Virus record (IMG/VR): IMGVR_UViG_3300035698_011757
Location: 1-64,000 of that record
Reading direction: 5' to 3' (one strand)
Length of the DNA: 64,000 bases
Source of the DNA: a virus
Below the pieces are notes generated by a model. The model was not told the origin of the DNA, did no database searches, and saw only the letters and a program-made list of their open reading frames with translations. Position 1 is the stretch's first letter, and each line of letters starts with the position of its first letter. The translations under genes and the position numbers were made by a program. Shown here in pieces: positions 3-58,522 of the stretch.

Positions 3-899
3 GTATACTTGCATGGGCAAGGTTCATCCAGAACGACGACAACAATCAACCATCCATACTATGTAAGATCCTTCGAAAAAAGAGGGATAGATGAGAGTGG
101 CGTTTCGAGAAGATTTTTGTCAAAACCTCGCTGGGAAAAGGCGGGAGAACTCAAGTCTGGAGATTTTTTAGCAACACCAATAAATAAGGAACATAAAAAC
201 CCACTAAACCTAACGAAAGACGAGTGTTATGTTCTCGGATTGTATATGGGAGGCGGTCACACTAGAAAAGATTTTAAAAAAAGGAGCGGTAAGATTTCAA
301 ACGATAGACATTGGCAGTTAATAATCTCCGTAGGTAGTCACGAAAAGGAATCCTTTGAAAAATCTGTAGGTTTGAAGTTTGGAATGACAAAGCATACCAA
401 AAACGTTCTCAGAGCCACTTTTAGCAATAAAAGACTTGTTCAGATAGCTGAGTCGGAGATTGGCTGTGGGGCGAAATCAAAATCAGTTTCAAAAAATATT
501 CTAGATCTCCCTATAAATTTATTAGAGAGGTTTTTAGAAGGTTACGAGTTTGCAGGTGGAAGCGAAAGAGGTGAGGTTTTTAGAGCTACATCAATATCAA
601 AAAACTTAGTAGACTCAGTGTCTTTAGTAGTGGCGAAGTTATTCAAAACAACTTGCTGCGTGGAGTTTACAAAAAGACCAAAGACGACAGTAATAGAAGG
701 TAGAACTGTAAATCAAAATAACACTTTCACAATATCTTACAGAAAATCTCACCCGAAACAGTCAAGAGCTATTGTAGAAGATGGCTTTGTATGGAATCCA
801 GTAAAAAAGGTTGAAAAATCCAACAAAAAGAAAATGGTTTATAATATAGAGGTGGAGGAGGACAACTCCTACGTCGCTGGCAATCATGTAGTTCACAAC
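3..899 (+). other. Intein (C-terminal part) inside the methyltransferase, degenerate LAGLIDADG
   Basis: The left edge cuts this intein. Visible are a block B-like stretch ending in NHPYYV (about 50-65), a LAGLIDADG-like region (LGLYMGGGH, about 237-263, and EGYEFAGGS, about 537-563), and blocks F/G ending VVHN at 888-899. The next residue is Cys, the required +1 nucleophile and also the methyltransferase catalytic Cys. Both LAGLIDADG motifs lack the usual catalytic Asp (GGG and AGG instead of GDG-like), so the endonuclease is probably dead while splicing residues (His-Asn|Cys) are intact. Confidence 0.85.
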
Positions 900-2303
900 T
901 GTCAAGGGTTCAGTTTTTGCGGAAAGCAGTTGGCATTTGACGATCCACGATCTAAACTCTTTTTTGTTTTTACTGATATACTCAAGCATATTAGAAAGTT
1001 CAATCCAGATGTAAAATTTCTGCTTGAAAATGTTAATATGAAAAAAGAATCAATCAAAGTGATCAGCCAACTTCTTGGCGTTGATAACGTTCCAATAAAC
1101 TCTAATCTTGTTTCCGCCCAAAGCAGACTTCGCCATTACTGGACTAACATCTGCGATATTGAACAACCAAAAGATAAAAAGGTGATCTTGTACGACATTA
1201 TGGAGGACGATGTTGATGATGATTTGTTTATAGATTTAGATGAAGTTGAATATATCCCAAACAAAATGCGTTTAGCTAATGGGGGGCATACGAATTCAAG
1301 CTCAAGATCAAGTAGGGGTCTTATTATGATAGGCGGCTTAGTTAAACCTCAATACAAAAAACCAGACCAAACAACATTTTCTCAAGGGTGCAGGGTTTAT
1401 TCCGTTGGTGGAAAATCACCAACAATCAACGCTAGCAGCGGCGGGATAGCTGGAAAGACTGGAGCTTATTATATTTGCGGAACACCCTCATATAAAATAA
1501 GAAAACTAAACAGAGTAGAATGTGAAAGATTACAAACAGTACCAGAGACGAAAATAATAACAAAAATAGATATATGTGTAGACCATCAAAATAAAACTGT
1601 AGATGTGGAAACGTCAAATCGCAAGTCGCTAAAGTATGCTGGGGATGCCGATCTAGACAATTACAGTCCAACTGCGAAATATGCGGAGAATCATTTAAAG
1701 CAAAAAGGTCAAAAAATAAAAAAACCTGTTCAAAAGAGTGTGATTATAAACCTAGGGGACGAAAAACAGCTATATCAAATTTTAAAGGAGTTTGTAAAAA
1801 ATGCGAAAGGTGCGAAAAAGAATTTAAGCTACCCCAATGCGATTAAGAAAGAAGATTTTGTAGCACTAGCTGTTTTCATGCAGAAATGGTTGGAGAAAAA
1901 AGCTCTAGATGGAAAGTGGGACTTACAAAAGGGAGAAAGTATTTTAACTCAACAAGAGAATGGAAGGGTTGTGTTAAGTTTGTCTGGAGGAGAGATTACG
2001 CCACCTGTCAAAAATGTAAAGAAAGATTCAATCATACTCAAAAAACTTTTGAAGTCCATCACATTAAGCCGTATTCCAGTGGAGATAGACAGTCAGACGT
2101 ATCAAATCTTATCTTGCTATGTTATAAATGTCATAATTGGGTGCATTCCAGAAAAAACGAAAGGAGTGAGTTTATATCAGATTAAGTTAATGGGTTTAGC
2201 GGAAAGTTACACAAAAGCAGTTAGTCAAAACCAAGCTATTAAAATGCTAGGAAACGGATGGACTGTTGACGTAATAGCTCACATATTTAAAGAATTAAAA
2301 TAA
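3..2303 (+). CDS. DNA (cytosine-5) methyltransferase with intein and HNH insertion, 5' end outside window
   Basis: The reading frame is open from the left edge, so the gene starts outside the window. Residues encoded by 3-899 are the end of an intein; the C-extein starts at 900 with Cys-Gln-Gly-Phe, the catalytic PCQ motif of C5 cytosine methyltransferases. Motif VI (ENV, about 1030), motif VIII (QSRLR, about 1120) and motifs IX/X (RKLNRVE, then MLGNGWTVDV near the end) follow in order. The closest relative in the window is the uninterrupted methyltransferase at 45927-46883, which ends almost identically. Compared with it, about 657 bp are inserted between LQTVPE and SYTK (1548-2204); that insert codes for an HNH protein in another frame but keeps this frame open. 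It would methylate cytosines in phage DNA, probably as protection from restriction. Whether the enzyme tolerates the extra 219 residues cannot be judged. Confidence 0.85.
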   Translation, partial: VYLHGQGSSRTTTTINHPYYVRSFEKRGIDESGVSRRFLSKPRWEKAGELKSGDFLATPINKEHKNPLNLTKDECYVLGLYMGGGHTRKDFKKRSGKISNDRHWQLIISVGSHEKESFEKSVGLKFGMTKHTKNVLRATFSNKRLVQIAESEIGCGAKSKSVSKNILDLPINLLERFLEGYEFAGGSERGEVFRATSISKNLVDSVSLVVAKLFKTTCCVEFTKRPKTTVIEGRTVNQNNTFTISYRKSHPKQSRAIVEDGFVWNPVKKVEKSNKKKMVYNIEVEEDNSYVAGNHVVHNCQGFSFCGKQLAFDDPRSKLFFVFTDILKHIRKFNPDVKFLLENVNMKKESIKVISQLLGVDNVPINSNLVSAQSRLRHYWTNICDIEQPKDKKVILYDIMEDDVDDDLFIDLDEVEYIPNKMRLANGGHTNSSSRSSRGLIMIGGLVKPQYKKPDQTTFSQGCRVYSVGGKSPTINASSGGIAGKTGAYYICGTPSYKIRKLNRVECERLQTVPETKIITKIDICVDHQNKTVDVETSNRKSLKYAGDADLDNYSPTAKYAENHLKQKGQKIKKPVQKSVIINLGDEKQLYQILKEFVKNAKGAKKNLSYPNAIKKEDFVALAVFMQKWLEKKALDGKWDLQKGESILTQQENGRVVLSLSGGEITPPVKNVKKDSIILKKLLKSITLSRIPVEIDSQTYQILSCYVINVIIGCIPEKTKGVSLYQIKLMGLAESYTKAVSQNQAIKMLGNGWTVDVIAHIFKELK
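1595..2185 (+). pseudogene. HNH homing endonuclease remnant inserted in methyltransferase gene
   Basis: In the frame +2 relative to the methyltransferase there is a typical phage HNH endonuclease: zinc-ribbon Cys pairs (CRCG..CWGC, CEICG..CSKEC, CERCE..CSTSC), then the HNH core EVHHI ... N ... CHNWVH near 2075-2170. In-frame TAA codons at 1592-1594 and 1844-1846 break it; only the part after 1886 (ATG) could still be made as a 99-residue HNH domain. It fills almost the whole insertion in the methyltransferase, leaving no room for a group I intron core. Confidence 0.7.
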
Positions 2304-4874: not shown

Positions 4875-5432
4875 ATGAAAGGTGACATTTTGAAATTAAG
4901 AGCAGAAGGAAAAAGCTATAACGAAATAGTTGACATTCTTGGATGCTCAAAAGGAACCATCTCTTATCACTGTGGAGAAGGACAAAAAGAAAAAACAGCA
5001 AAAAGAAGAGATGATTTTAGAAAAAAGAACCCTTTAAGCAAAAAAATAGATAACTTCAAAAATAGAAAATTTAAAAAAAACAACAAAGGAGAATTAAAAT
5101 CCTCTAAAGAAAAAAGAAAGAGGAAAAAAGCTGCCGACTTTCAAAAAACAATAAAATTCGGAGATAGATTTTCTTTTGATGACATTGTCCGTGAGGAGGT
5201 CGAGTTTGAATGTTATTTAACTGGCGACGTTATAAATAAAAATGATTTAGCTTCATTTCACTTTGACCATGTAATTCCAAGATCAAAAGGTGGAAGTAGT
5301 TTAATAAGCAACTTAGGAATAGCGACTAGAGAAGCCAATTTTGCTAAAAGAGACATGAATCCACAAGAGTTTTTTGACTTGTGCGAAAAAGTTCTAAAAC
5401 ATCAAGGTTATGATGTAAAAAAACCAAAATAA
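4875..5432 (+). CDS. HNH homing endonuclease with N-terminal HTH
   Basis: The protein has 185 residues. Residues 1-32 form an HTH (AEGKSYNEIVDILGCSKGTI), followed by a Lys-rich linker (about 40-95) and an HNH nuclease core at about 130-165 with FHFDHVIPRSKGG, SNLGIA and AKRDM. This is a free-standing mobile endonuclease of the type common among phage tRNA clusters, with apparently intact catalytic His and Asn. It stands just upstream of tRNA-Gln. It would cut intron- or HEG-less alleles of a target site and spread itself. The target is unknown. Confidence 0.8.
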   Translation: MKGDILKLRAEGKSYNEIVDILGCSKGTISYHCGEGQKEKTAKRRDDFRKKNPLSKKIDNFKNRKFKKNNKGELKSSKEKRKRKKAADFQKTIKFGDRFSFDDIVREEVEFECYLTGDVINKNDLASFHFDHVIPRSKGGSSLISNLGIATREANFAKRDMNPQEFFDLCEKVLKHQGYDVKKPK

Positions 5433-11162: not shown

Positions 11163-13277
11163 ATGGGCAAGATTTTTATCACTGGCGTAACAGGTATGGA
11201 CGGATCATACTTGGCGGATTATTTACTAGAGTTGGGGCATGAAGTTTATGGTGGCATTAGGCGGCTATCGTCACCGAATACCCAGAATATCAAACAAGCC
11301 GTTAATCACAAAAACTTTCATAGTGTCGCGTTTGACCTTTCTGACACTCATTCAATCAACAAAGCGGTAGAAGAAATCCAACCAGACTTTTTTATTAATT
11401 TAGCCGCACAATCGTTTGTGGGGTCTAGTTGGGACATTCCAGAGCAGACGTTCGATATTAACGCTACAGGTGTCCTACGATGCCTTGAGGCGATCAGAAA
11501 GCACGCTCCTAAGTGCAGGTTCTACAACGCAGGGTCAAGCGAGGAAGTTGGAGACGTAGATTATTCCCCTCAAGACGAAAAACACCCATTAAAACCAAGA
11601 TCACCATATGGCGCGTCAAAAGCGGCAGCTAGACACTTAGTGAAGGTTTATAGAGAAAGTTATGGTCTATTTGCAATTCAAGGAATGTTGTATAATCACG
11701 AATGTTTCGACTCAAACACGCCAATAATCTTAAAAAACAAGTCGGGATCAATAACGATAGATTACATTAGAAACCTATGCCCAGAAAGATCAGATATAAC
11801 GAAGGACAATTCAGTGCTTACGAAAGACTTATCTTCAGAAAATCTTGACATTTGGGACGGAAGCGATTTTGTAAAATTAAAATTAATAACCAGAAGAAAA
11901 AGTAAAACAGTAAAAAATTACGAAAAAAAATCCTTAATCTCAAGACATGGAGAGTGCGTTGCGACTAACGGTCACAACTTCATACTAGAGGATGGATCTA
12001 AACGAAAGTGTGAAAAAATAAAGGAAAAGGACAGATTGAAACACGGAAAATTTCCAGAAACAAAAGAAACGATCAGTATAACAAATGAACTAGCAAAAGT
12101 GATGGGATTCATTTGTAGAGATGGTAGCATATCAAAAATGGGTAATAAATTCAATTTAGTGAATGCAGATGAGAGCATTTTAAAGGACTTTGAAGAGTCC
12201 TGCCTCAAATCATTTCCTAATGCTAAATTTAAAAGATCTAAAAATCCCTCTAGATTTAAACTTGGAAACTTTAGTCACAAAACTACAGTGAGCGGGGTAA
12301 ACTCTGGAACCGTTAATTATTTAAGAGAATCTTTATATGAAAAGAAAACAAGTCACAAAAAAATCCCAGATGAAATATTAAACTCCACAAAAGAAAAAAT
12401 GCTAACATTCTTCGATTCTTACTATAGATGTGGTGGACTCAAAAAAACAAAAGCAAAATACAAATATTCAAGCTTCAAAACTAGCTCCCCAATACTAGCA
12501 CAAGGTTTATTGTTTTTAATTAGCAAAATATCAGATCAAGATTTTTGTATAAATAGATACTACCACAACGACAAACTATATTACCAAATAAATTTAACAT
12601 CAACAACTAAAGATAAAAAAGGAGATCATCTCAAAAAAAACAATAACGAAGTTAAGAAAATCATCAACATTAAAAACGGGGATGGCTGCTTCGTATATGA
12701 CGTAGAGACTGAGACTGGAGTGTTGAATGCTGGGGTTGGAACAATGGTCGTGGGAAATTCGCCAAGAAGAGGCATTGAGTTTGTGACTCAGAAGATAGTT
12801 TCTTCGGCAAGAAGAATAAAAAACGACTTAGATTTAGCGTATTCACCACCAATATTATACTTGGGAAACATTTACGCAAAGAGGGATTGGAGTCATTCTA
12901 AAGATTTTGTAAGAGGAATCTGGGCAATGGTTAGTCAGCATAAGCCAGAAGAATATATTCTTGCTTCTGGAAAAACCCACACAGTTAAAGAGTTTGTAGA
13001 GGCGACATTTAAAGAGTTTAATATAAATTTAACATGGAAAGGAGATGGTTTGGATGAAGTGGGTTACTTAAGAGATGATAATCACCACGAAGGTGAATTT
13101 AAACATTGGTGTAGAGCGACAACAATCCCATTGATTAAGATTTCTGAAGAGTTTTATAGACCAGCGGAAGTGGATTTATTACACGGAGACGCAACGCTAG
13201 CGAGAGAGAATTTAGGATGGATTCCAGAGTATTCATTTACTGATTTAATTAAAGATATGGTTAAAGGTGATAAATAA
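11163..13277 (+). CDS. gmd: GDP-mannose 4,6-dehydratase with intein
   Basis: The 704-residue frame contains a 352-residue SDR enzyme interrupted by a 352-residue intein. N-extein: Rossmann GVTGMDGSYL, AAQSFVGSSW, GSSEEVG, and catalytic SPYGASKAA (Tyr149, Lys153). After the intein comes SPRRGIEFVT, which with the preceding NHE makes the GMD signature NHESPRRG, and then LGNIYAKRDW and YRPAEVDLLHGD. It converts GDP-mannose to GDP-4-keto-6-deoxymannose, the precursor of fucose-type sugars, possibly for modifying host surface glycans or phage DNA/virions. Glycosyltransferases occur at 30347-33853. Own promoter upstream. Confidence 0.93.
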   Translation: MGKIFITGVTGMDGSYLADYLLELGHEVYGGIRRLSSPNTQNIKQAVNHKNFHSVAFDLSDTHSINKAVEEIQPDFFINLAAQSFVGSSWDIPEQTFDINATGVLRCLEAIRKHAPKCRFYNAGSSEEVGDVDYSPQDEKHPLKPRSPYGASKAAARHLVKVYRESYGLFAIQGMLYNHECFDSNTPIILKNKSGSITIDYIRNLCPERSDITKDNSVLTKDLSSENLDIWDGSDFVKLKLITRRKSKTVKNYEKKSLISRHGECVATNGHNFILEDGSKRKCEKIKEKDRLKHGKFPETKETISITNELAKVMGFICRDGSISKMGNKFNLVNADESILKDFEESCLKSFPNAKFKRSKNPSRFKLGNFSHKTTVSGVNSGTVNYLRESLYEKKTSHKKIPDEILNSTKEKMLTFFDSYYRCGGLKKTKAKYKYSSFKTSSPILAQGLLFLISKISDQDFCINRYYHNDKLYYQINLTSTTKDKKGDHLKKNNNEVKKIINIKNGDGCFVYDVETETGVLNAGVGTMVVGNSPRRGIEFVTQKIVSSARRIKNDLDLAYSPPILYLGNIYAKRDWSHSKDFVRGIWAMVSQHKPEEYILASGKTHTVKEFVEATFKEFNINLTWKGDGLDEVGYLRDDNHHEGEFKHWCRATTIPLIKISEEFYRPAEVDLLHGDATLARENLGWIPEYSFTDLIKDMVKGDK
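11703..12758 (+). other. Intein in GDP-mannose 4,6-dehydratase
   Basis: Starts with Cys (CFDSNTPIIL, block A), has a block B-like ATNGHNF, LAGLIDADG-like MGFICRDGS and a degenerate second motif (SYYRCGG), and block F VYDVETETGVLNAG. It ends Val-Val-Gly-Asn before Ser. The penultimate residue is Gly rather than His, a known but uncommon variant. The second endonuclease motif lacks its Asp. Confidence 0.88.
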
Positions 13278-13908: not shown

Positions 13909-15112
13909 AGAAAAGTATATAGACCCGACTAAAGCCGCAATGAACGCTTTCCTAAAAAACAATAAGGAATTTCATTACAACTATGAGGACTCAATAAGAT
14001 ATAAAGTTTCATTCGGAAGTTTGCTTCTGGATGCTGAGTTAGAGGGTATAGGTCCTGGCTTTCATAGGTTCGTAGGCCCTACTGAGAGCGGAAAAACATC
14101 AGAAGCTCTCAAGATCATGAAAAACATGTTCGAGACTGTTCCTAATTCAAAAGGGTATTTCGTTAAGGCGGAAGGTCGATTGTCAGACAATATGATAGAA
14201 AGGTCTGGTATCACATTCACAACAGATCCAGAAAAATGGGACGTGGGAACATGTTTTGTTTTAGAGTCAAACGTGTTCGAGACGGCTATGGAGGCAATGA
14301 AGACCTTGATTAACATCACAGACGCTTTGGTAAAACCAGAAGATAAGATTAAATTCTGCTTTATTGTCGATTCAGTAGACGGGCTTTGCCCGAAAGGTGA
14401 TTTAGACAAGCCATTCACGGACTCAGACAAGATCGCTGGAGGAGCTGTAATTACAAGCGCGTTCGCGAAAAGATGCTCTATTGGTTTGGAAAAACGTGGA
14501 CACATGGCTTTTTTCTTAGCTCAACATCGCGCGAAGATCGAAGTAACTAGAGGTTCTCATGACAAGCAAAAGCAAGACGGAGGCACTGGAGGTAACGCTG
14601 TAAAGCATTACTCAGACTTCATTATCGAGTTTAAAACAACATACGGCAAAGACTGGATAACGGACAATGGAATTGGCGAGCAAGTGACACCAAAAAACAG
14701 AATCCAAGGAAGGATGTCAACCATCGTAATCCACAAAAGCCCAAATGAAAAAACTGGAATGACGTTAGCTTACCCAGTTAAAAGAGGGCGCACTTGCGGA
14801 AAATCAATTTGGGTGGAAAGAGAGGTTGTTGATTTCTTGCTTAATTGGGAACTTATTACAAAAAAGTCAGCTTGGTTCTCCTTTACGGAAGAAATGAATG
14901 ACCAATGGACTAAATTTCACAAGGAAATATTCAACAAAGAAGAGGCTAATAGAAAAAAAATCGAAAAGAAAGATTTTAAATCTGGGGAGTTTGAAGCTCC
15001 AGAAGAATTAAAACAAATCCAAGGAATAAAGTCTGTGTATGACTTTTTTGAAAATAACGAACCATTTACTGATCATATAGTAGAGTTCTGTAAGGATTTA
15101 ATAACTTCATAA
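13886..15112 (+). CDS. RecA/UvsX-like recombinase
   Basis: 408 residues. Walker A GPT-ESGKT at residues 64-71, Walker B FCFIVDSVDGL (about 152-162), and an L2/motif-like LAQHRAKIEVTRGSHDKQKQDGGTGGNAVKHYSD region, where RecA proteins bind single-stranded DNA and contact neighbours. The family forms filaments on ssDNA for strand exchange. It overlaps its neighbours by 23 nt and 1 nt (TAATG), placing it in one operon with DnaB and primase. Divergent from bacterial RecA, closer in style to phage UvsX types. Confidence 0.88.
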   Translation: MTKNPKDKEKYIDPTKAAMNAFLKNNKEFHYNYEDSIRYKVSFGSLLLDAELEGIGPGFHRFVGPTESGKTSEALKIMKNMFETVPNSKGYFVKAEGRLSDNMIERSGITFTTDPEKWDVGTCFVLESNVFETAMEAMKTLINITDALVKPEDKIKFCFIVDSVDGLCPKGDLDKPFTDSDKIAGGAVITSAFAKRCSIGLEKRGHMAFFLAQHRAKIEVTRGSHDKQKQDGGTGGNAVKHYSDFIIEFKTTYGKDWITDNGIGEQVTPKNRIQGRMSTIVIHKSPNEKTGMTLAYPVKRGRTCGKSIWVEREVVDFLLNWELITKKSAWFSFTEEMNDQWTKFHKEIFNKEEANRKKIEKKDFKSGEFEAPEELKQIQGIKSVYDFFENNEPFTDHIVEFCKDLITS

Positions 15113-15525
15113 TGAAATTTATTGATCTAAATGGAAATCTAAGAACGCTTAAAAAAGCGTCAGAGAATTGCGTAGACTGGGAAGGTGAATGTAGGAGCAA
15201 ATTTCAAAAGAAAGTGAAGGAATTCTTGTTTGAATACTGGAAATACGATTTAGTTCTTGAGGAAATGAAGGTCGTTGGTACAGCTTTATCTATCGACATT
15301 TACAACGCAACACAAAAGGTTGCGATAGAAGTTCAAGGGGAGCAGCATACAAAACACGTATCCTTCTTTCACGGATCTAAATCGCAAAGGGGATTATCAA
15401 AACAGTTTGAGAGAGACGAAAAAAAGCTAAAGTTCTGCAAGCTAAACGACATAACAATGATAGAGATTTACAAAATAGAAGAATGCACGATAGAATTCTT
15501 CGCAGAACATGGGATTATTTTATAA
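15112..15525 (+). CDS. Vsr-like / PD-(D/E)XK nuclease-fold protein
   Basis: 137 residues with the core SIDIYNATQKVAIEVQGEQH (Asp...Glu-x-Gln, as in Vsr-type nucleases) and the following RDEKKLKFC...MIEIYKIEE. The same core (LDFGF...AIEVQGQ) appears in the homing endonuclease at 23875, but this protein lacks NUMOD repeats and fits tightly in the operon (start overlaps upstream stop). It may be a domesticated nuclease used in replication or repair, or a former homing enzyme. Confidence 0.65.
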   Translation: MKFIDLNGNLRTLKKASENCVDWEGECRSKFQKKVKEFLFEYWKYDLVLEEMKVVGTALSIDIYNATQKVAIEVQGEQHTKHVSFFHGSKSQRGLSKQFERDEKKLKFCKLNDITMIEIYKIEECTIEFFAEHGIIL

Positions 15526-15804: not shown

Positions 15805-18336
15805 ATGTTGTATAACTACGATATTGAAAAACAAGTCCTAGCAGGACTACTAAGATACCCAGACGACGTATTTGAAAAAATACAAGATTACGTTAAGCCA
15901 GAGCATTTTTATGAAGAAAGTAGTGTTAATAAAACTCTATTCTTTATTATCACGGCTAGACTAGAAAAGCAGGAGAGTTTAGATCCATTCATCATTACGC
16001 AAAAAGTAACTGAGTCTGGCATTACGTTCGAAGAGCATTTGGACGTTTATGACTATCTAAAAAACTTAAATTTCAGAAAAGTTTCCGTCGAGGCGGCGGT
16101 AGACTCAGCCAAGGAGTTGATTTCGCTCTATTTCAAGAGGAGAATGTGCAAAACTGCGGACGATCTAAAAAGAACAATCAAGCAAAAGAGTTTTAGTTCA
16201 TTCCAATCCATGATTGATGAGTGTGACCAAATTTATAACGACAGCGTCAACGTATTTGATGGTGGAGATAGGGATGAAGTTGCAAACATCTACGATGATC
16301 TTGAAGACGTTATTGAAGGTTTGGGTGAAGAAGGGTTAAATGATCCAGTAGGACCTCATAAAAAGCTCTATAGCATCTATGGTAGTCAAGTTAAGGCTGG
16401 CAACATCACAATCATCTCAGCGCGCGCGGGGTGTGGAAAAATGATGCCTCATTACAGTAAAATCAAAACAAGGATAGGATGGACTAATCATGGGGATATT
16501 AAAATTGGTGATGAAGTGTCCTGTCCAGATGGCACGTTTTCTTTGGTTGATGGCGTGTTTAAAAAGGGAGTTCAAGATGTTTACAGAATTACATTTACAG
16601 ATGGAAGAGTAGCGGACTGTGGCTTGGATCACTTATGGAAGGTAAGATCCAGAAATCCTCATAAGAAAAAAACCTCTTACGAAGTGAAAGACACGACTCA
16701 AATGATTGAAGAATTAAAAACCCTCAGTCTATATGTCCCCTTAACGGAAGCTCAAAATAATAAGGATAAATCCGTAAGCGTAGACCCTTATGTTTTAGGA
16801 ATCCTACTTGGTTATGGGTGCTTGAAAAAATCAAATTACTTAAAGATAACTACGAACGATGATGAAATTTACAATAAAATCAGCAATACTTATTCCTGCG
16901 GAAAGAAAGTTTTAGACAAAAGAACGAAAAATACATACTCATTCTCTATTTTAGACAAGAATGTAAAAAAAGCTATCGAAGAATTGGGTCTTTTAAACAC
17001 GTCAAGCTCTACTAAGTTTATTCCAAGCGAATATAAGGAAGGTCTATCGAAAAGTCAAAAACTAAACTTAATTAAAGGTTTAATGGATTCATATGGACAC
17101 GTATCACTTAGCTTGGAATATTCAACATTTAGCAAAAAACTATCTGATGATTTCAGAGAGTTAGTGTGGAGTATTGGAGCTGTATGCAAACAAAGAATAA
17201 AAGAAACATCGTATAAAACAAAAGAAGGCGAAAAAGTAAAATGCGAACAAACTTATATTCACGCAATTAGATATTCATCCCCAAAAGACTTGTTCTCCTT
17301 GATTAGAAAAAAGAACAAATGTCCAGAAAATTATCAATATTCAGACTTGGATTTGAAGATTGAAAAAATCGAATTCCTATCAAGAGAAGAGTGTTCTTGC
17401 ATATCCATCAATCATGAGGATCACTTGTATTTATGCGATGATTATGTAGTAACACACAACACAACATACGCCTTAGATTACTCAACAGCGATAACTGATG
17501 AGACTGCATGCCCAGTGATTCACTTCGATAATGGAGAGATGAGCAAGAAGGAACTTCAAATTCGCCAAATGGCGGCTTTGAGCGGAGTTTCTACATTTAA
17601 TATTGAGAGTGGCAGGTGGAGAAATTGTGAGATATTAACCAAGAAAATTAGAGATGTTTACAAAAAAATTAAGAATTTTAAGTTCTTCTACATAAATGTT
17701 GGTGGTAAATCCTCAACAGAAATGATGAGTATATTTAAGAGAACTTATTATTCAAAAGTTGGACGCGGAAATTATTGTGTGTTCTCTTTTGATTATATTA
17801 AAACATCGTCTGAGAAGCTAGGTAATAAACAAGAACACCAAATCGTAGGAGATATGCTTGATGGATTCAAAACTTTAATCCAAAGAACAATCCAAGACGA
17901 AGAAAAAGAGCCTTGCGTGGCAATGATAACTTCAGTTCAAAGTAATAGATCTGGAATCGTTGGGAGCCAAAGGGGTTCTCATGAGATTATGGATGACGAG
18001 GGAAGTATTTCTTTGTCAGATAGAATTATTCAAATTGCCTCGCACGTCTATATCCTAAGAAAGAAGACGATAGAAGAAATGGCGCGAGACACTGAGAAGT
18101 TTGGGACTCATTACCTCATTAACCTAAAAGCTCGTCACATGGGCGAAGATAAAGAGCTGGATTACATCACAGTTAAGGTTGAAGGAGCCAGACATAGAAA
18201 TAAAATCTGCCTTGAACTTAAAAACTTTGTTGTAGTGGAGAAGGGCGATTTAAACGATGTCGCAGAACACCTAGAAACAATGAATGATGTCATCGAAAAC
18301 GAAAGAACCACAGACCCTTCAATCGCAGGATTATAA
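15805..18336 (+). CDS. dnaB: Replicative DNA helicase DnaB with class 3 intein
   Basis: Extein residues 1-150 match the DnaB N-terminal domain (DIEKQVLAGLL, HFYEESSVNKTLF); the RecA-like ATPase starts near 195 with Walker A ARAGCGK, interrupted by an intein, then resumes with TTYALDYSTAI, FDNGEMSKKELQIRQMAAL (motif 1a/2), FSFDYIKTSS (Walker B), SVQSNRSG and SDRIIQIASHVYIL (motifs 3/4). The spliced product would have about 503 residues, normal for DnaB. It unwinds the replication fork. It overlaps the primase gene by 53 nt. Confidence 0.92.
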   Translation: MLYNYDIEKQVLAGLLRYPDDVFEKIQDYVKPEHFYEESSVNKTLFFIITARLEKQESLDPFIITQKVTESGITFEEHLDVYDYLKNLNFRKVSVEAAVDSAKELISLYFKRRMCKTADDLKRTIKQKSFSSFQSMIDECDQIYNDSVNVFDGGDRDEVANIYDDLEDVIEGLGEEGLNDPVGPHKKLYSIYGSQVKAGNITIISARAGCGKMMPHYSKIKTRIGWTNHGDIKIGDEVSCPDGTFSLVDGVFKKGVQDVYRITFTDGRVADCGLDHLWKVRSRNPHKKKTSYEVKDTTQMIEELKTLSLYVPLTEAQNNKDKSVSVDPYVLGILLGYGCLKKSNYLKITTNDDEIYNKISNTYSCGKKVLDKRTKNTYSFSILDKNVKKAIEELGLLNTSSSTKFIPSEYKEGLSKSQKLNLIKGLMDSYGHVSLSLEYSTFSKKLSDDFRELVWSIGAVCKQRIKETSYKTKEGEKVKCEQTYIHAIRYSSPKDLFSLIRKKNKCPENYQYSDLDLKIEKIEFLSREECSCISINHEDHLYLCDDYVVTHNTTYALDYSTAITDETACPVIHFDNGEMSKKELQIRQMAALSGVSTFNIESGRWRNCEILTKKIRDVYKKIKNFKFFYINVGGKSSTEMMSIFKRTYYSKVGRGNYCVFSFDYIKTSSEKLGNKQEHQIVGDMLDGFKTLIQRTIQDEEKEPCVAMITSVQSNRSGIVGSQRGSHEIMDDEGSISLSDRIIQIASHVYILRKKTIEEMARDTEKFGTHYLINLKARHMGEDKELDYITVKVEGARHRNKICLELKNFVVVEKGDLNDVAEHLETMNDVIENERTTDPSIAGL
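16441..17460 (+). other. Class 3 intein in the DnaB P-loop
   Basis: 340 residues placed between GCGK and T of Walker A. It begins with Met, not Cys/Ser/Thr. It has DHLW in block B, a Cys in block F (ECSCISINHEDHLYL) and ends THN before Thr. Trp-Cys-Thr is the hallmark of class 3 inteins, which start splicing with the block F Cys. The LAGLIDADG motifs (LLGYGCL, MDSYGHV) have lost their Asp, so homing activity is likely gone. Confidence 0.85.
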
Positions 18337-20624: not shown

Positions 20625-21419
20625 ATGGTAATTCCAATCTTTAAAACAGACTGCTCGTTTGGTAAGAGCGTCTTAACAGACGCTCACCCAAACAAAGTAA
20701 AAGAAGGCGGCGCGAATAGCGTATTTAAAATTGCAAAGGATAACGGTATGGAGCAATTATGCATCATCGAAGATTCTTTCGTTAGTTTTTTTAGCGCTCA
20801 CAGAACAGCAAAAGACCTAGGCATTACCCTTGCTTATGGCATCTACTTTAAAATTGATGACCCTCAGAATGAAAAGCATTGGAGCAAGGTCGCTGTTGTA
20901 GCTAAAAACGATGCTGGACTAGAGCATCTTCGAAACCTATATTCTAAAATTCACACCAAAACCAGTGAAGACCCAAAGAAAAAAGGTCAACAAAAACCTA
21001 ATCCAAAAATGACAAATGAAGAATTGCTAGCTTTTGGAAAAGAAGCTGGTAAAGATGTTCATATTTGCATTCCGTTTTATGATTCATTCATTCATTGGAA
21101 TATCGAAAACTTCACAGCTCTCACTATGGACTTTGGGGATCTAGATATTACATTTTTTCTAGATGACAAGGGACACTCTTTCGATGACTTAATCAGATCC
21201 AAGGTTCTTGAATATTGTAAAAACAATAAAATAAAAACTCAAGAAACTCACACAATTTACTACGAAAACGATAGTGACGTTACAAGCCTACAGGTCTACA
21301 AAATGATCTGTAGTAGAAGCTATTCTGGCAAAAAAGCTAGTTTGGGAAACCCAAACCTTGAGCATTTCTGCTCAAACCAGTTTAGTTTCGAATCATACAA
21401 AAAAAAGATCAATGGATAG
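20625..21419 (+). CDS. Separate PHP domain of DNA polymerase III alpha
   Basis: 264 residues resembling only the N-terminal PHP domain of DnaE/PolC: SVFKIAKDNGMEQLCIIEDSF, AHRTAKDLGITLAYGIYF, KVAVVAKNDAGLEHLRNLYS and, near the end, SLQVYKMICSRSYSGKKA. In bacterial replicases this is fused to the polymerase; here it is a separate gene followed by exonuclease and polymerase genes. Metal-binding His residues of active PHP domains are mostly missing, so it probably plays a structural role. Confidence 0.7.
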   Translation: MVIPIFKTDCSFGKSVLTDAHPNKVKEGGANSVFKIAKDNGMEQLCIIEDSFVSFFSAHRTAKDLGITLAYGIYFKIDDPQNEKHWSKVAVVAKNDAGLEHLRNLYSKIHTKTSEDPKKKGQQKPNPKMTNEELLAFGKEAGKDVHICIPFYDSFIHWNIENFTALTMDFGDLDITFFLDDKGHSFDDLIRSKVLEYCKNNKIKTQETHTIYYENDSDVTSLQVYKMICSRSYSGKKASLGNPNLEHFCSNQFSFESYKKKING

Positions 21420-22071
21420 GCAATTATTACGACACAAATACGGACAAATTTATATGGTGTTCGATACCGAGACAGAAGGACTTAATTTGATTAACTCGCG
21501 ACCTTGGCAATGTGCTTGGGCGTTAATTAAAGTTAATGTTGACGGGATCGAGATCATAAAAGATAATGACAGGCTAATTGCTTGGGACAAATTAAACATA
21601 CCGACGTTTGTAAAAAAACTAACTGGTTTTAATCAAGTTAAATATAACAAGCTAAAAGAGCCTCCAGAGGACGTTTTTAAAGACTTCTGGGCTGATTTGA
21701 CGAATCCAGACCACATTATCGTGGGACAGAACCTTTTAGGTTTTGATATTTACATGGTCAACGTTTGGCGTCGAATGATAGGTCTGCCTTCAGATTTTTC
21801 ATACTGCAAAAATATCTTAGACACAAGAGCTTTAGCTATTGCTCATAAAACTGATGTAAAGTACAGAGAAATGTCTAAAGAAGATAGACTGTCTTGGCAA
21901 TTTAAATTAATTAAAGGGTCAAGATTCAACAGAAAGTTAAAAGTTTCCCAAATTCAACTACTAAAGGACTTCGAAATCGACTTTGTAGAGGCAATGCTAC
22001 ACGACGCCAAGTATGATAACTTGAAGTGTGCGGAGATTTTCGCCAAACTACTATACTGTTTGGAAATTTAA
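21412..22071 (+). CDS. DnaQ-like 3'-5' proofreading exonuclease
   Basis: 219 residues from ATG 21412, which overlaps the PHP gene by 8 nt. DEDDh motifs are visible: VFDTETEGL (Exo I, about 17), VGQNLLGFDIYM (Exo II), and HDAKYDNLK (Exo III). It would proofread for the polymerase encoded directly downstream. The order PHP-exonuclease-polymerase is like the domain order in PolC, but as separate proteins. Confidence 0.85.
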   Translation: MDRQLLRHKYGQIYMVFDTETEGLNLINSRPWQCAWALIKVNVDGIEIIKDNDRLIAWDKLNIPTFVKKLTGFNQVKYNKLKEPPEDVFKDFWADLTNPDHIIVGQNLLGFDIYMVNVWRRMIGLPSDFSYCKNILDTRALAIAHKTDVKYREMSKEDRLSWQFKLIKGSRFNRKLKVSQIQLLKDFEIDFVEAMLHDAKYDNLKCAEIFAKLLYCLEI

Positions 22072-22091: not shown

Positions 22092-23873
22092 ATGACAACA
22101 TTCATGAATGATTGTGAGGGATACATAGAACCATACCCAGTTGGAGTTCTACTTCCTAGCATTAAAATAACCGAAAAGGACAAAGCTCAGAATGAAGTTT
22201 CTGGAGAAATGACCAATGCCGAGTTTCTGCGAGCTGTTTGCAGAAAAAAGTTTAAAGATTTAAAAATCGACCAAAAACCAAACTCAAAAGATTACGCTGA
22301 CAGAATTAAAATGGAACTAGGCATCTTTGAAGAGCTTGACTTCGTAGACTATATTTTGCTTAACTGGGATATTATTGGAAAATCAAAAGAAAAAGGCATT
22401 CCAATTGGTGCTGGTCGTGGTTCAGCCGCAGGTTCGTTGGTTCTTTATCTTCTAGGGGTCACAGCTATTGACAGCCTCAAGCACGAACTGTTCTTCGAAA
22501 GATTCGTGTCAAGATCGAGAGCGCGAAAGATCGAGCATAATGGCGTCACATATCTAGATGGAGGCTTATTGCCCGATGTTGATAATGATATTGCTTACGA
22601 CAGACGACAAGAGGTTATTGATTATGTTGAAACCGAATATGCTGGACGAACAGCAAAAATATTAACAATCAACACATTAACAGGAAAACTTTGCATTAAA
22701 GAGTGTGGAAAGATTGTTGCAGAACTATCAGAGGAAGATGTAAACGAAATTAGTTCGTCTATTCCAAAAAATGGTGGATCAGTGTTTCCACTAGCAGAAG
22801 CTTACGAGGAAAGCCTTAAATTTCAAGGATTTATGGATGACCACCCAGAAGTGTTTAGAATCGCAAAAACACTAGAAGGGCTAAAAAAGAACTTCGGTGT
22901 TCACCCAAGCGGAATCGCTATTTCAAGACAAGATATTAAAGAGGTAATGCCTTTGCAGTTGACAGGAGATTGTGAGATCGTCACAGGTTACGACATGAGA
23001 GCTGTGGCGGAGCTTGTTGTTAAGTTTGATGTTCTAGGTCTAAGAACCCTATCTGTCGTTTACGACACGTTAAAACAAGTAGGATTGAAGCTAGAAAACA
23101 TAGATGTAAACGACGAATGTATCTATAGACATTTGCAAACACTAAAAGATCCACAAGGATTATTTCAGATTGAAGCTGACACAAACTTTAGGGTTTGTCA
23201 GTTGGTAAGACCTATGAATTTAGAGCATTTAAGTGCCATTTTAGCACTAGCGAGGCCCGGGGCCTTGGATTATGTGGAAGACTTCGTAAAGTATAGGGAT
23301 ACAGGGGAATCTCAACTCAAGCACGAAATCTTTAAGGACGTTTTAGACTACACTGGAGGCACTGCGCTTTACCAAGAACAGTTGATGAAAATGGCAAACA
23401 ATATCGGCTTTTCGTTAGACGAATCAGAAATGCTTCGAAGAGTAACGGCTAAGAAAAAACCAGAAGAGGTTAAAAAGTGGAAAGGTTTAATTAAAGACAA
23501 AGTAAAAGAAAACAACCTAGACGAAGAAGTGGGAGATATTCTATGGAAAGTCGCGGAAGATTCTGCAAATTATAGCTTTAATAAATGCTTGGCTTTAGAT
23601 ACTATAGTAGAAACGGAGCATGATTTTAAAATGATGTATGAAATATCTAAAGGTGATTTCATAAAAGCTTACGACGTAGATGGCGACAAAAATATCCTTG
23701 TTGAAGTTTTAGATATAATTAACGGACAGAAAGAGCTTTTTGAATTCGAAATGTTCGACGGAAACACAGTAACATGCTCAATGGATCATAAATTTTTATG
23801 CAGTCACGATAAAAAAATGCACCCAATTAGAAATATTATAGAGAATGATTGGGAAATAGTGTGTAATAGTTAG
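22092..23873 (+). CDS. DNA polymerase III alpha, N-terminal part fused to N-intein
   Basis: Residues 1-498 are the palm/thumb/fingers of a C-family polymerase: GAGRGSAAGS at about 106-115 and LLPDVDND (Asp162, Asp164) near 160, then FGVHPSGIA, FDVLGLRTL, PQGLFQIE, LARPGALDYVEDFVKYRD and YQEQLMKMANNIGF...LRRVTAKKK. The extein ends in SYSFNK, then 95 residues of N-intein end at TAG 23871. The remaining polymerase is at 24906-25976. Both halves must be joined by protein trans-splicing for a whole enzyme. A free-standing homing endonuclease lies between. Confidence 0.92.
   Translation: MTTFMNDCEGYIEPYPVGVLLPSIKITEKDKAQNEVSGEMTNAEFLRAVCRKKFKDLKIDQKPNSKDYADRIKMELGIFEELDFVDYILLNWDIIGKSKEKGIPIGAGRGSAAGSLVLYLLGVTAIDSLKHELFFERFVSRSRARKIEHNGVTYLDGGLLPDVDNDIAYDRRQEVIDYVETEYAGRTAKILTINTLTGKLCIKECGKIVAELSEEDVNEISSSIPKNGGSVFPLAEAYEESLKFQGFMDDHPEVFRIAKTLEGLKKNFGVHPSGIAISRQDIKEVMPLQLTGDCEIVTGYDMRAVAELVVKFDVLGLRTLSVVYDTLKQVGLKLENIDVNDECIYRHLQTLKDPQGLFQIEADTNFRVCQLVRPMNLEHLSAILALARPGALDYVEDFVKYRDTGESQLKHEIFKDVLDYTGGTALYQEQLMKMANNIGFSLDESEMLRRVTAKKKPEEVKKWKGLIKDKVKENNLDEEVGDILWKVAEDSANYSFNKCLALDTIVETEHDFKMMYEISKGDFIKAYDVDGDKNILVEVLDIINGQKELFEFEMFDGNTVTCSMDHKFLCSHDKKMHPIRNIIENDWEIVCNS
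23586..23870 (+). other. N-half of split intein (polymerase III alpha)
   Basis: 95 residues starting with Cys (CLALDTIVE, block A), with CSMDHKFL as block B (the Cys-Ser-Met-Asp-His form of TxxH-like), and ending in a stop codon after about the length usual for N-halves of split inteins (around 100). Confidence 0.9.
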
Positions 23874-23874
23874 T

Positions 23875-24828
23875 ATGCTATCTATTAAAATACAAGATTT
23901 TAAAAAAATCATTCCAACAAGCATGTTCGAAAATTGCCTACTAGACAATGTTTCAAAAAAAGATATAATAAATAAATTTCCAACTAGAGATGGAGGAGCT
24001 TATTATTTAGATAAATTCGAGAACCATTTAATTGAAAATCACAACATAGATTTAAAAAAATACATAAAAGAATTCTTAAATGAGGACTACCCAAAATGCC
24101 CAGTCACAAATAAAGACGTTGGCTTTGTCAAAAATGGAAAGGGGGTAGTTTTTTCAACTAGAGCTAGAGGGTCCGTGACCAAAGATAGTTGCGAAAACTT
24201 TAAAATAGCTTGCGAAAAATTATCTAAAGAAAGAATGGGGGATAAAAATCCAATGTTCGGAAGAATACCTTGGAATAAAGGGAGTGAAGAATGGGCTAAA
24301 GAAGTGTCTAAAAGATTCAAAGGGAAGCCGCTCTCAGAAGATCATAAAAAAAAGCTATCTGAATCTGCAAAAGTTAGGGAGGTTCACGGAAACACTGGAA
24401 ACAAACATTCTGAGGAATCAAAACAAAAAATGAGAATAGCCACAGCGAAGAGGTTAAAAAAGGGAGATTTCAACAAAACTTCAAAAATACAAATAAAAGT
24501 GAGAGAGTTTTTGCAAACCCTAGACCTAAAAGAGCCTTTTGAAGAAGAGTTTCATTTAAAATATTATTCTCTTGACTTTGGTTTTAAAACAGCTAAACTA
24601 GCTATTGAAGTTCAAGGTCAGTATTTTAATATAGATCCTAGATTTTACCCAAACGGAGCAGAAGACGCTATTCAAAGAAGGAACTCTGGAAGAGATAAAG
24701 CTAAAAGATCTTTTTTGAAAAATAAAGGATGGCACATGGAGGAAGTGTGGGAAAAAGAAATAAATGAAAACAAATTCAAACAACAAATACTATGTATTCT
24801 ACAAAAATTAAATATTTTAAATCAATAG
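23875..24828 (+). CDS. Free-standing Vsr-like homing endonuclease with NUMOD3 repeats
   Basis: 317 residues. Middle: NUMOD3-like repeats GDKNPMFGRIPWNKG, FKGKPLSEDHKKKLSES, GNKHSEESKQKM (about 120-190) that bind DNA. C-terminal (about 200-300): Vsr-type nuclease fold with YYSLDFGFKTAKLAIEVQGQ and RDKAKRSFLKNKGWHMEEVW. The start codon follows the N-intein stop by one base and the end overlaps the C-intein ORF by 37 nt. This is the arrangement described for fractured genes, where such an endonuclease sits between split-intein halves. Confidence 0.88.
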   Translation: MLSIKIQDFKKIIPTSMFENCLLDNVSKKDIINKFPTRDGGAYYLDKFENHLIENHNIDLKKYIKEFLNEDYPKCPVTNKDVGFVKNGKGVVFSTRARGSVTKDSCENFKIACEKLSKERMGDKNPMFGRIPWNKGSEEWAKEVSKRFKGKPLSEDHKKKLSESAKVREVHGNTGNKHSEESKQKMRIATAKRLKKGDFNKTSKIQIKVREFLQTLDLKEPFEEEFHLKYYSLDFGFKTAKLAIEVQGQYFNIDPRFYPNGAEDAIQRRNSGRDKAKRSFLKNKGWHMEEVWEKEINENKFKQQILCILQKLNILNQ

Positions 24829-24905
24829 GGACAAAACCTACGATAGATTTCGAAGTAAATCACAAAGATCATAACTTTTACGCACATGGGTTAGTTACAT
24901 CAAAC
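24792..24905 (+). other. C-half of split intein (polymerase III alpha)
   Basis: 38 residues with block F (IDFEVNHKDHNFYAHG) and block G LVTSN before Ser. The terminal Asn is present; the penultimate residue is Ser instead of His. Confidence 0.9.
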
Positions 24906-25976
24906 TCTCACTCAATTTCCTATGCTTATCTATCCGCTTATACGGTCTGGTTAAAAGTCAATTATCCGCAACAATTCTATGTGAGTTTATTAAAGATGGC
25001 TAAAAGTGAACCAGATCCATATTCTGAAATCCAAAAAGTTTCCCAAGAATTATCTAGAGGTGATGTAAAACTACTCCGACCAGACTTAATGAAATCTAAC
25101 ATGGACTTCTCAGTAGAGGGAAAAGATATTAGATTCGGTCTTAATTGCATTAAAGGCGTTGCTGAGAAAACTCTAAAAGCTTTAGTTGAATTAAGAAGCT
25201 CTGAAATAAAAAACAAGTTCGACTTATTTTCATGCGCCAAAGAGGCTGGCTTAAATATTGGAGTCTTTTCTGCTTTAATCTACGCTGGTGCGTTAGATCA
25301 AATAAAATTAGATTCAAAATCAAGATGTTACTTAGCTTTAGAAGCTCAAGCTTTCAATATATTGACTGATAGAGAAAAGAGATTGTTCTACGATTTCGGA
25401 GAGGAATTCGAATATATGATCTTAGATATGATCAAAGAATCGCAGGATGAAATGCTAAAAGACGAAAACGGAAAAAGAATTATGAAAGATTCAAGATTTG
25501 AAACTTTTAAAAAGAAGTTTGTAAACTATAAAGCAATCTATGCACAAAACATCAAGAAGCAAGACTTTGCTCATTGGTATTTTGAAAACTCTTTGCTTGG
25601 TTATTCTTACTCAAAGCCACTAAGAGAGCTAATGAAAGATAAAAGTTTAATGAGCATCGAAGAGGTGGATAAGATGGATGGTTGTAAAGTAAATATAGTC
25701 GCAAGTATCTCAGACACAAAGAGAGCCAAAGCTCAAGCTAGTGGAAATCTTTATTATAGAATGGATATTCATGATGAGACAGGAAATTGCTCTTGCATGC
25801 TAATGGATAACAAACGAAGAAAGAACTTGACTATTTACGAAGATTCTGGTAAGGTTCTGCCAGAAAAGGGAGGAATCATAAAGATTCAAGGGTCAAAATC
25901 GGGAGATATGATCTTTGTAGACTCAATCGACATAATCGACAGAGACGTTTTCCTCAAATTCAGCGAAATGAAATAA
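24792..25976 (+). CDS. DNA polymerase III alpha, C-intein plus C-terminal part
   Basis: Residues 1-38 are the C-half of the split intein; Ser39 starts the C-extein SHSISYAYLSAYTVWLK, which follows SFNK of the N-part exactly as in uninterrupted DnaE (FNKSHS). Then a helix-hairpin-helix region (FGLNCIKGVAEKTLKAL, about 115-132) and an OB fold (CKVNIVASISDTKRAKA, RMDIHDETGNCSCM) near the end. Together with the N-part the polymerase has about 854 residues. The start ATG overlaps the homing endonuclease. Confidence 0.9.
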   Translation: MYSTKIKYFKSIGTKPTIDFEVNHKDHNFYAHGLVTSNSHSISYAYLSAYTVWLKVNYPQQFYVSLLKMAKSEPDPYSEIQKVSQELSRGDVKLLRPDLMKSNMDFSVEGKDIRFGLNCIKGVAEKTLKALVELRSSEIKNKFDLFSCAKEAGLNIGVFSALIYAGALDQIKLDSKSRCYLALEAQAFNILTDREKRLFYDFGEEFEYMILDMIKESQDEMLKDENGKRIMKDSRFETFKKKFVNYKAIYAQNIKKQDFAHWYFENSLLGYSYSKPLRELMKDKSLMSIEEVDKMDGCKVNIVASISDTKRAKAQASGNLYYRMDIHDETGNCSCMLMDNKRRKNLTIYEDSGKVLPEKGGIIKIQGSKSGDMIFVDSIDIIDRDVFLKFSEMK

Positions 25977-42138: not shown

Positions 42139-42167
42139 AAAAAGCTCACATTTAGTGGGCTTTTTTT
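42139..42167. terminator. Bidirectional terminator
   Basis: AAAAAGCTCAC-ATTTA-GTGGGCTTTTT (one T-G pair) lies between the convergent peptidase and LAGLIDADG genes. Confidence 0.85.
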
Positions 42168-43014
42168 ATTGCTTAGGAAAAGATTTGTGAAATAAATCTT
42201 GTTTTTCCAAAGCTTCCTCTAAACTTGGGAATGTTCCAATGTATTTGATTCCCCTTCTGCACTTGCTTTGTAGAGATGTGGTTTTAAAGTCGCCATACTT
42301 ACTTCTTATGATCCCAGAAGATACAGTCTCTTCATTCCCAAATAAAACTTTTCTGGAAGAGTCCTCTCTCTTTTTTAAATATTTTTTGTAATCATAAAAT
42401 TTTTCCACCTTTCTAGATAAGCCTATAGGAAAATCAATAGACTCGCAAAATTTTATTTTGTCAGAATTTTTTGTGACTTCTACTACAGAGTATTCGTGGT
42501 GTGCTTTTTTATGAGACTTGTGGTGAGAGGGGCGGGATTTTCTATACACCTTACAATCAATACCTATATCATCAAAGTAGTCTTCCAAAAATGTATATTT
42601 CTGAAGCTTAGATCCATTAAAAGAAACTCTGAATAGATTATTTTTATCAAGAGATATAGATCCATCTCCATCCAAAAACCCTTTTATAAAGAATTTTCTA
42701 TTCTTTTTGTTGATTTTAAAATACAAGGGGCAATCAGAACCATCTTTATTATCGAACTGATACTCTTCAAAAAAAGAGAGATTTTTAGAAGAGCGAGCGC
42801 AACTCTGGGGTTTGCTTGAGTTTTTTCTTATTCTGGTTGTGAATTTTTCGAAACCTAAAAAATCTCTCAGTATATACCAAACTTTGTCAAAATCATCTTT
42901 TTTAACTTCAAAGCTAAAGGAGGAATACCCCCTCTTACACTTGCCGAAATAACAATCTGCCCAAAAATAACCCAACATATAGCAAGTTTCTGCTTGACTT
43001 AAATCAATATTCAT
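42166..43014 (-). CDS. Free-standing LAGLIDADG homing endonuclease
   Basis: 282 residues from ATG 43014 (a longer frame to 43149 would run through the start of the divergent phosphoesterase). First motif YMLGYFWADCYFG, second motif FIKGFLDGDGSISL, both with acidic residues. The C-terminal part (SKYGDFKTTSL...GIKYIGTFPSLEEALEK) looks like an AP2-type DNA-binding domain. It is the only complete free-standing LAGLIDADG protein in the window and stands on the strand opposite to its neighbours. Confidence 0.85.
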   Translation of the reverse strand: MNIDLSQAETCYMLGYFWADCYFGKCKRGYSSFSFEVKKDDFDKVWYILRDFLGFEKFTTRIRKNSSKPQSCARSSKNLSFFEEYQFDNKDGSDCPLYFKINKKNRKFFIKGFLDGDGSISLDKNNLFRVSFNGSKLQKYTFLEDYFDDIGIDCKVYRKSRPSHHKSHKKAHHEYSVVEVTKNSDKIKFCESIDFPIGLSRKVEKFYDYKKYLKKREDSSRKVLFGNEETVSSGIIRSKYGDFKTTSLQSKCRRGIKYIGTFPSLEEALEKQDLFHKSFPKQ

Positions 43015-43036
43015 AATAGTGTTTACACACAAAATC

Positions 43037-43738
43037 ATGAAAACCACGAAAAATATTACAGGGACTGTCATTTTATTAGGAGATATACATGGAGATTTCG
43101 CTTTTTTAAAGAGATTTTTGCACAGAAATGCAACAAACGATTCAACCATTATTCAATTGGGAGATTTTGGTTTGGGGTTTTCAAATAATGATAAAAACGA
43201 AATGGCAAGTTTAAACAAAAAACTCTCAAATCACAACGTCAAGCTAATAGTTATTAGAGGCAATCATTGCAAGCCCGACTATTATGAAAACGATAATATT
43301 AGAAACGAATTCAACTCAGTTTACTCCAATATAGAATTGATAAAAAATCAAACCTACAAAATATTAAATGGTAAAAAAACCTTATTTTTAAACGGAGCTA
43401 TATCTATCGATAGATCAACCCGAAAAGAGGGGGAGAGTTATTGGAAAGACGAAGCTCTTAATGTTGATATTCCATCTTTGGAAAAATCTGACATTATATT
43501 ATCACATACATGCCCAAATCACTTCAATGTAGGGAAGAATATTTTAGCATACTGGCTGAATAAAGACCCTAAACTTGAAAAAGATTTAAAAGTTGAGCGC
43601 AACATAATGGACGAAGTTATGGAAAAAGTTCAACCTGTAACGTGGCATTTCGGACATTTTCATGAGTCAACTAGCGGCGAATACGAAAAATGTTATTGGA
43701 GATGTATAGATATTAACGAAGGATTTGAACTTATTTAA
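43037..43738 (+). CDS. Calcineurin-like metallophosphoesterase
   Basis: 233 residues. Metal-binding motifs in order: LGDIHGD (about 14-20), LGDFGLG, IRGNHCKPD, LSHTCPNHF and WHFGHFHES, the complete set for a dimetal phosphoesterase. The family includes protein phosphatases, nucleotide hydrolases and 2',3'-cyclic phosphodiesterases. The substrate is unknown. Start ATG 43037 follows a TTGACT box by 38 nt. Confidence 0.88.
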   Translation: MKTTKNITGTVILLGDIHGDFAFLKRFLHRNATNDSTIIQLGDFGLGFSNNDKNEMASLNKKLSNHNVKLIVIRGNHCKPDYYENDNIRNEFNSVYSNIELIKNQTYKILNGKKTLFLNGAISIDRSTRKEGESYWKDEALNVDIPSLEKSDIILSHTCPNHFNVGKNILAYWLNKDPKLEKDLKVERNIMDEVMEKVQPVTWHFGHFHESTSGEYEKCYWRCIDINEGFELI

Positions 43739-56893: not shown

Positions 56894-57102
56894 ATGGAAC
56901 CAATAATAGAATATAAAAAACAAGTCACAAAAGCAAACGAAGGTCTTCAAAAAAAATTAAAAGATATTGCTAGAAAAAAACATTGACAAAAATGGGATAT
57001 TCTGTCATAGTTGTGTGGGATTCAGATTGGGAGGTTAATAAGAAAAAATACATAAAAAGAATAGAAGGTGAAATTATTAAAAAAAGAAAAAATCAATCGT
57101 AA
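56894..57102 (+). pseudogene. Remnant of Vsr-like homing endonuclease between intein halves
   Basis: Two small frames: 56894-56986 (EPIIEYKKQVTKANEG...) and 56992-57102 reading MGYSVIVVWDSDWEVNKKKY, the typical last segment of Vsr-type nucleases (GWxVxxVWExDW). The catalytic core is gone. As in the polymerase locus, its end overlaps the C-intein ORF. A TTGACA (56983-56988) may serve as promoter for the downstream part. Confidence 0.7.
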
Positions 57103-58477: not shown

Positions 58478-58522
58478 ACATGCTTTTTCCCTTTGGGTTT
58501 GTTGTGTGTAAAAGTAATCAGA

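Follow-up and report, generated by a model that had tools for sequence, protein, structure and literature searches.

Organization of the Interrupted Polymerase Locus

The DNA analyzed here (hereafter the window) comprises positions 1 to 64,000 of IMG/VR virus record IMGVR_UViG_3300035698_011757, nearly all of this 65,480-base metagenomic virus record. In it, the gene for the core of a phage DNA polymerase III alpha subunit (pol III alpha) is divided between two open reading frames (ORFs) of the same strand, which carry the two halves of a putative split intein at the break, and a free-standing gene for a Vsr-type endonuclease lies between them (Table 1). This organization had been proposed from the letters of the DNA without database searches (the sequence-only reading). 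The positions, spacing and overlap given there for the three ORFs agree with the ORF coordinates and the domain profiles, and the anatomy, the profiles and further alleles at the same site support its reading as a pol III alpha fractured by a split intein whose halves flank a gene for a Vsr-type homing endonuclease.

The ATG codon of the endonuclease gene is located 1 nucleotide (nt) past the stop codon of the first ORF, and its 3' end overlaps the second ORF by 37 nt. The N-extein shares about 60% identity with its uninterrupted counterparts in related phages, in which this conserved enzyme gene is a single ORF; the uninterrupted core ORFs inspected measure 853–861 codons between stops, and the spliced core of the window is predicted at 498 + 356 = 854 amino acids (aa). 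Insertion occurs after FNK and before SHS (FNK/SHS), not before CFNKSHS as in cyanobacterial DnaE. The sequence-only reading had counted three residues from the cyanobacterial DnaE split to the window site, a figure corrected here to four, the cyanobacterial site being Y/CFNKSHS.

Using Rfam at the gathering threshold, neither a group I intron nor any other known RNA element was found at the break, the window yielding only tRNAs. A promoter and terminator scan gave 10 promoter-like sites, not clearly above the shuffle mean of 6.9, and no terminator. Shine-Dalgarno-like motifs were present at just 4 of 42 start codons in the window, so the missing ribosome-binding site at the C half is uninformative; upstream regions are A-rich, and this pattern suggests a host with Shine-Dalgarno-independent initiation. 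In this phage group pol III alpha appears to consist of three separate genes (PHP-like and exonuclease, 20625-22071, followed by the core), whose order is reminiscent of PolC. Since PHP-like and exonuclease ORFs of similar size precede the core in the relatives inspected, this layout seems to characterize the group as a whole and to be separate from the fracture.

Table 1. Features of the polymerase locus, followed by other intein-interrupted genes of the window.
Feature	Position	Strand	Length	Description
Pol-N + Int-N ORF	22092-23873	+	593 aa	498 aa pol III alpha + 95 aa N-intein
N-extein, pol III alpha catalytic core and fingers	22092-23585	+	498 aa	Ends ...ANYSFNK; PF07733 (DNA_pol3_alpha) 5e-61, PF17657 (finger) 1.4e-27
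N-intein	23586-23870	+	95 aa	CLALDT...CSMDHKFL...VCNS; stop TAG 23871-23873
NUMOD3 + Vsr/EDxHD-like endonuclease gene, free-standing	23875-24828	+	317 aa	NUMOD3 1.4e-10, vsr 1.3e-4 (Pfam/NCBIfam)
Int-C + pol-C ORF	24792-25976	+	394 aa	38 aa C-intein + 356 aa
C-intein	24792-24905	+	38 aa	MYSTKIK...DHNFYAHGLVTSN; ends VTSN
C-extein, helix-hairpin-helix and C-terminal part of pol III alpha	24906-25976	+	356 aa	Starts SHSISYAY; PF14579 (HHH_6) 1.9e-17; PRK05673 positions 751-1033
PHP-like N-terminal region of pol III alpha, separate gene	20625-21419	+	264 aa	NCBIfam PRK05673 positions 26-245, E=2e-5
DnaQ-like 3'-5' exonuclease gene	21358-22071	+	237 aa	Pfam RNase_T 3.4e-6; PHROG polymerase exonuclease subunit 1e-8
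Interrupted cytosine methylase gene	9-2303			Intein profile match
Interrupted GDP-mannose dehydratase gene	11163-13277			Judged by eye
Interrupted DnaB-like helicase gene	15805-18336			Judged by eye
Interrupted RNA-ligase-like gene with LAGLIDADG	53858-55435			Intein profile match

The Intein Halves and Their Splicing Residues

The two intein halves of the window score weakly on general intein profiles (TIGR01445, E=0.014; TIGR01443, E=0.054; both below cut-off), so homologs were needed for the intein call; support came from the 14 further alleles that share the site. In the N-intein, Cys1 and the SxxH motif of block B are conserved across the related split alleles aligned, as are HNF and the terminal Ser-Asn of the C-intein, and the splicing residues Cys1, SxxH, Asn and Ser+1 are all present in the window. 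From an alignment with ten N-halves, AlphaFold2 predicted the contiguous allele L088 as a single HINT fold (pLDDT 84), whose top Foldseek matches were the Npu DnaE intein (E=1.4e-8) and gp41-1; by sequence, it matched Npu DnaE constructs (2.3e-9 and 1.5e-8, phmmer). The N part of the window intein aligns along its length with L088, and its C part aligns with other C-inteins. These results indicate that the two halves together would make up one HINT domain, the fold being taken from the L088 model and extended to the window by alignment to the other alleles, L088 included. The sequence-only reading had been prepared to give way if the halves did not model as one HINT fold, a doubt settled in its favor by this homologous contiguous allele. 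The intein is also under purifying selection, as the N-inteins of L100 and L101 differ with a nonsynonymous rate (dN) of 0.036 and a synonymous rate (dS) of 0.64.

Allelic States of the FNK/SHS Site

A scan of viral contigs recovered 80 relatives of the core with 57-62% identity, 78 of which read through ...YSFNKSHS uninterrupted. After further scans, public contigs contained 252 loci with an empty FNK/SHS site, 180 of them distinct over 180 nt, and 15 distinct alleles (22 records, window included) with a related intein at exactly this position. L088 bears a contiguous intein of 130 residues within a 979-codon ORF, and in L102, L109 and L175 the intein is split without a nuclease, 13-27 nt separating the ORFs. 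A Vsr-type gene in sense orientation lies between the halves in the window, L086, L087, L099, L100 and L101, while L097/L098 retain only the last 240 nt of a decayed one, 98.75% identical to intact L099. The remaining split alleles carry an antisense GIY-YIG gene (L018/L021), a free-standing LAGLIDADG gene (L110-L113, one allele), or an N-intein fused in frame to NUMOD4-HNH and followed by a separate C half (two alleles, L085 and L090/L091). Every nuclease type at the site (Vsr, GIY-YIG, HNH and LAGLIDADG) is supported by Pfam. At residue -1, 13 alleles have Lys, whereas L087 has Ala and L088 has Arg. The contig of L175 was binned as Verrucomicrobiales; it is probably a phage contig, because a Clp-like gene follows the polymerase as in the window.

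The Intervening Endonuclease

Direct protein searches with the window nuclease recovered NUMOD3 fragments only. Its AlphaFold2 model (pLDDT 70.6) is good in the N-terminal and catalytic parts and poor in the linker, and its best PDB match was I-Bth0305I (3r3p; E=1.6e-4, target TM 0.79); Vsr was among the nucleases that followed. Sequence searches with the nuclease or its domain gave no match to 3r3p, which was found by fold comparison alone. The Vsr-like catalytic fold predicted in this way, together with the NUMOD3 motif, is that of a Vsr/EDxHD-type enzyme.

Alignment with Escherichia coli Vsr showed that D51 is kept (D234), and that E25 corresponds to Q206, H64 to Q247 (Gln in all six copies) and H69 to N252. 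L099-L101 likewise lack Glu at the Glu25 position and have His instead, which leaves N252 as the one change of the two that is specific to the window, the other five intact copies having His there; Asp234, Glu245, Gln247, Asn270 and Asp274 are invariant in the six copies, window included. The branch of L100 and L101 is under purifying selection, since their nucleases differ with dN 0.025 and dS 0.53 (dN/dS about 0.05). The description of the endonuclease as intact in the sequence-only reading holds only for the reading frame, open over 317 codons; because Q206 and N252 replace Vsr active-site residues, activity of the window nuclease is uncertain and not to be assumed.

Mobility of the Cassette

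A polymerase tree was built with 13 intein-bearing and 12 empty alleles, the latter picked as the nearest relatives. Well-supported branches of this tree force at least 10 gains or losses of the intein; since the empty alleles were so chosen, this is a count of events and not a frequency. In approximately unbiased (AU) tests, the polymerase data rejected the clades L099+L101 (p=0.003), window+L175 (p=0.019) and L086+L087+L088+L102 (p=4e-5), and the intein data rejected L099+L175 (p=8e-4) and L102+L109 (p=0.019), p values that are optimistic because the groups were picked after identities had been seen. The intein tree is poorly supported and gives no order of events.

Comparison of L100 with L101 revealed a 1.3-kb cassette 85-95% identical in every 60-nt bin (about 90%), between polymerase flanks mostly 55-83% identical on both sides (about 70%), with steps at both intein ends. 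Identical fourfold sites numbered 84/117 in the cassette versus 56/144 in the flanks (p=1e-7). Allele L111 and the empty locus L273 are 94% identical 30-240 nt from the site and 63% identical within 30 nt of it (p=1e-9), as expected if donor flanks had been carried in. A further trace was found in the codon for the serine at position -4 from the site, which reads AGY in 10 of the 13 occupied alleles that encode Ser at this position (L097 omitted as nearly identical to L099) versus 8 of 179 empty haplotypes. Seven of eight sister pairs combine AGY in the occupied member with TCN in the empty one, and the eighth has TCN in both. As this two-base synonymous change leaves the protein unaltered, it marks the history of the DNA; co-conversion of the flank is its simplest reading, and selection for resistance to cutting is the alternative. 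Taken together, the conflict between trees, the at least 10 changes, the L100/L101 cassette and the codon footprint support a cassette that has moved between phages.

Proposed Mechanism and Alternatives

In the explanation that we favor, a naturally split intein disrupts the phage pol III alpha core gene at YSFNK/SHS, and two precursors, pol-N + Int-N (593 aa) and Int-C + pol-C (394 aa), would be made from the same strand. These would associate and splice in trans through Cys1, block-B SxxH, the terminal Asn and Ser+1 to give a polymerase core of 854 residues, the predicted ligated product containing ...YSFNKSHSISYAY.... The gene between the halves would be, or would recently have been, a homing endonuclease with the uninterrupted site as its cleavage target in co-infecting relatives, which would then receive a copy of the cassette; the nuclease would in this way drive its mobility. 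We hold this explanation as a whole to be very probable. The anatomy, the empty sites, the homologous inteins at the same site, the alternative nucleases and the horizontal movement of the cassette are read from the sequences; splicing, cleavage and the part of the nuclease in mobility are inferred from them.

Three observations weigh against this explanation: the window nuclease is changed at two Vsr positions (Glu25 to Gln206 and His69 to Asn252); clear local divergence of the flanks was found in only two of the eight sister pairs, strong in L111 and weak in L021; and alleles without a nuclease exist (L102, L109, L175 and L088), so the nuclease is not required for persistence of the intein. 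The strongest competitor, which we regard as possible though the less probable account, is that the intein splices and the window endonuclease is already inactive, the cassette being a degenerating former mobile element kept as the polymerase needs splicing. Both the Q206/N252 replacements and the decay seen elsewhere, with the last 240 nt remaining in L097/L098 and nothing in the nuclease-free split alleles, would fit it. However, the window frame is open, the five invariant residues are kept, and the Glu25 position is equally replaced in L099-L101, where the nuclease is under purifying selection.

It is also conceivable, if rather unlikely, that free-standing nucleases invaded an already split intein and act for themselves, the intein being a passive safe site. 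In its favor, one gap is shared by four nuclease families that differ in orientation and fusion, and there are split alleles without any nuclease; against it, in L100/L101 intein and nuclease travel jointly, the boundaries falling at the two ends of the intein, and the marker in the flanking codon goes with the intein and not with a particular nuclease. We give very little credence to the proposal that the halves are a two-subunit polymerase that does not splice, like the genes-in-pieces NrdA of phage Aeh1, which reportedly works as separate subunits without splicing. Although separate PHP, exonuclease and core genes already make up pol III alpha in these phages, the residues for splicing persist in alleles that have otherwise diverged strongly, purifying selection acts on the intein (Int-N values of L100/L101 above), and no intein-less break was seen at the FNK/SHS site among the alleles collected. 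Finally, an assembly artefact (two genes joined, or a broken contiguous intein), a worry for any metagenomic virus record and one that the sequence-only reading had itself raised as a misassembled single-gene intein, is ruled out for practical purposes by the same split arrangement in many independent contigs from different samples, with coherent frames and related sequences.

Other Inteins and Nucleases in the Window

The window phage is intein-dense (Table 1). A second split intein (56406-56858 and 57068-58477) interrupts an RNA-ligase-like gene at KLHG/SNAG. Its gap of about 210 nt contains an apparent remnant of a Vsr-type nuclease, GYSVIVVWDSDWE... (hmmsearch 2.9e-5 for the gap alone, 0.034 window-wide), and its C half includes a further contiguous intein, CFEYST...LVHD. 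A free-standing Vsr-type nuclease gene (15112-15525), located between the RecA-like and DnaB-like genes, is kin to the nuclease of the fractured polymerase (hmmsearch 1.1e-8). Other free-standing nuclease genes are of the GIY-YIG (58493-59101), LAGLIDADG-like (42166-43149, minus strand) and HNH (4875-5432) types.

Comparison with Known Systems

In 2009, Dassa and colleagues reportedly described fractured genes in which split inteins are combined with homing endonucleases of the Vsr type. The window locus belongs to this known class, sharing with it the phage setting, a replication gene in two pieces, split intein halves and a free-standing Vsr-type gene between them; it may differ in its host gene, a phage pol III alpha, and it differs in a site that shows contiguous, split-empty and decayed states and four nucleases, an unusually complete set of evolutionary states. 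The split DnaE of cyanobacteria (Ssp, Npu) belongs to the same host protein family, has a homologous HINT domain and is likewise split at the usual nuclease insertion point, but its site lies four residues upstream, it has Cys+1, its halves lie far apart in the genome, and it has no nuclease. The predicted nuclease domain fold is shared with I-Bth0305I and the EDxHD homing endonucleases, from which the window differs by Gln and Asn at the Vsr Glu25 and His69 positions, as read through the Vsr alignment and not from the residues of 3r3p itself.

A search with the window N-intein among annotated phages returned only nrdA loci of Campylobacter phages (CP20, CPt10 and others); these N-inteins are related over the full length (35-40% identity) and the annotations place a hypothetical gene next to the interrupted nrdA, the host gene being in contrast a ribonucleotide reductase. 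The Rhodococcus phages Grayson and Dorin (MH153812, PQ114736) have a pol III alpha intein at exactly FNK/SHS, which is unsplit and without nuclease, that of Grayson being about 27% identical over the N part. Gordonia phage Wojtek (L187 3092-7132), read by eye, apparently has a contiguous HNH intein in pol III alpha at a nearby different site, YSF/N. In jumbo phage MIJ3, PolB is split by an intein with an HNH gene between the halves (PMC6892783); it resembles the window in having a replicative polymerase split by an intein around a nuclease gene, but the polymerase is of family B, the nuclease HNH and the site unrelated. The literature search found no account of a pol III alpha fractured in this way, nor of one with four nuclease families at one site, among papers that did not include the locus list of Dassa et al. 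(2009).

One lineage of split intein at one replicase codon may act as a reusable dock, onto which nucleases of four unrelated families (Vsr, GIY-YIG, HNH and LAGLIDADG) are loaded and from which they are lost. The intein itself would continue to pass from phage to phage, taking along a short stretch of co-converted flank that the serine codon switch marks; we put the chances of this broader view at about even. The origin of split inteins and the entry of nucleases into inteins have so far been argued from scattered loci. Here, a single site in a single gene is found empty, with a contiguous intein, with a split intein that lacks a nuclease or keeps a decayed one, and in four differently armed forms; for many of these versions there are close relatives with an empty site, and through this range of states the order of events, the replacement of nucleases and homing become directly testable. 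The collection also yields about a dozen natural split-intein pairs that are new; such pairs are sought after as tools for ligation.

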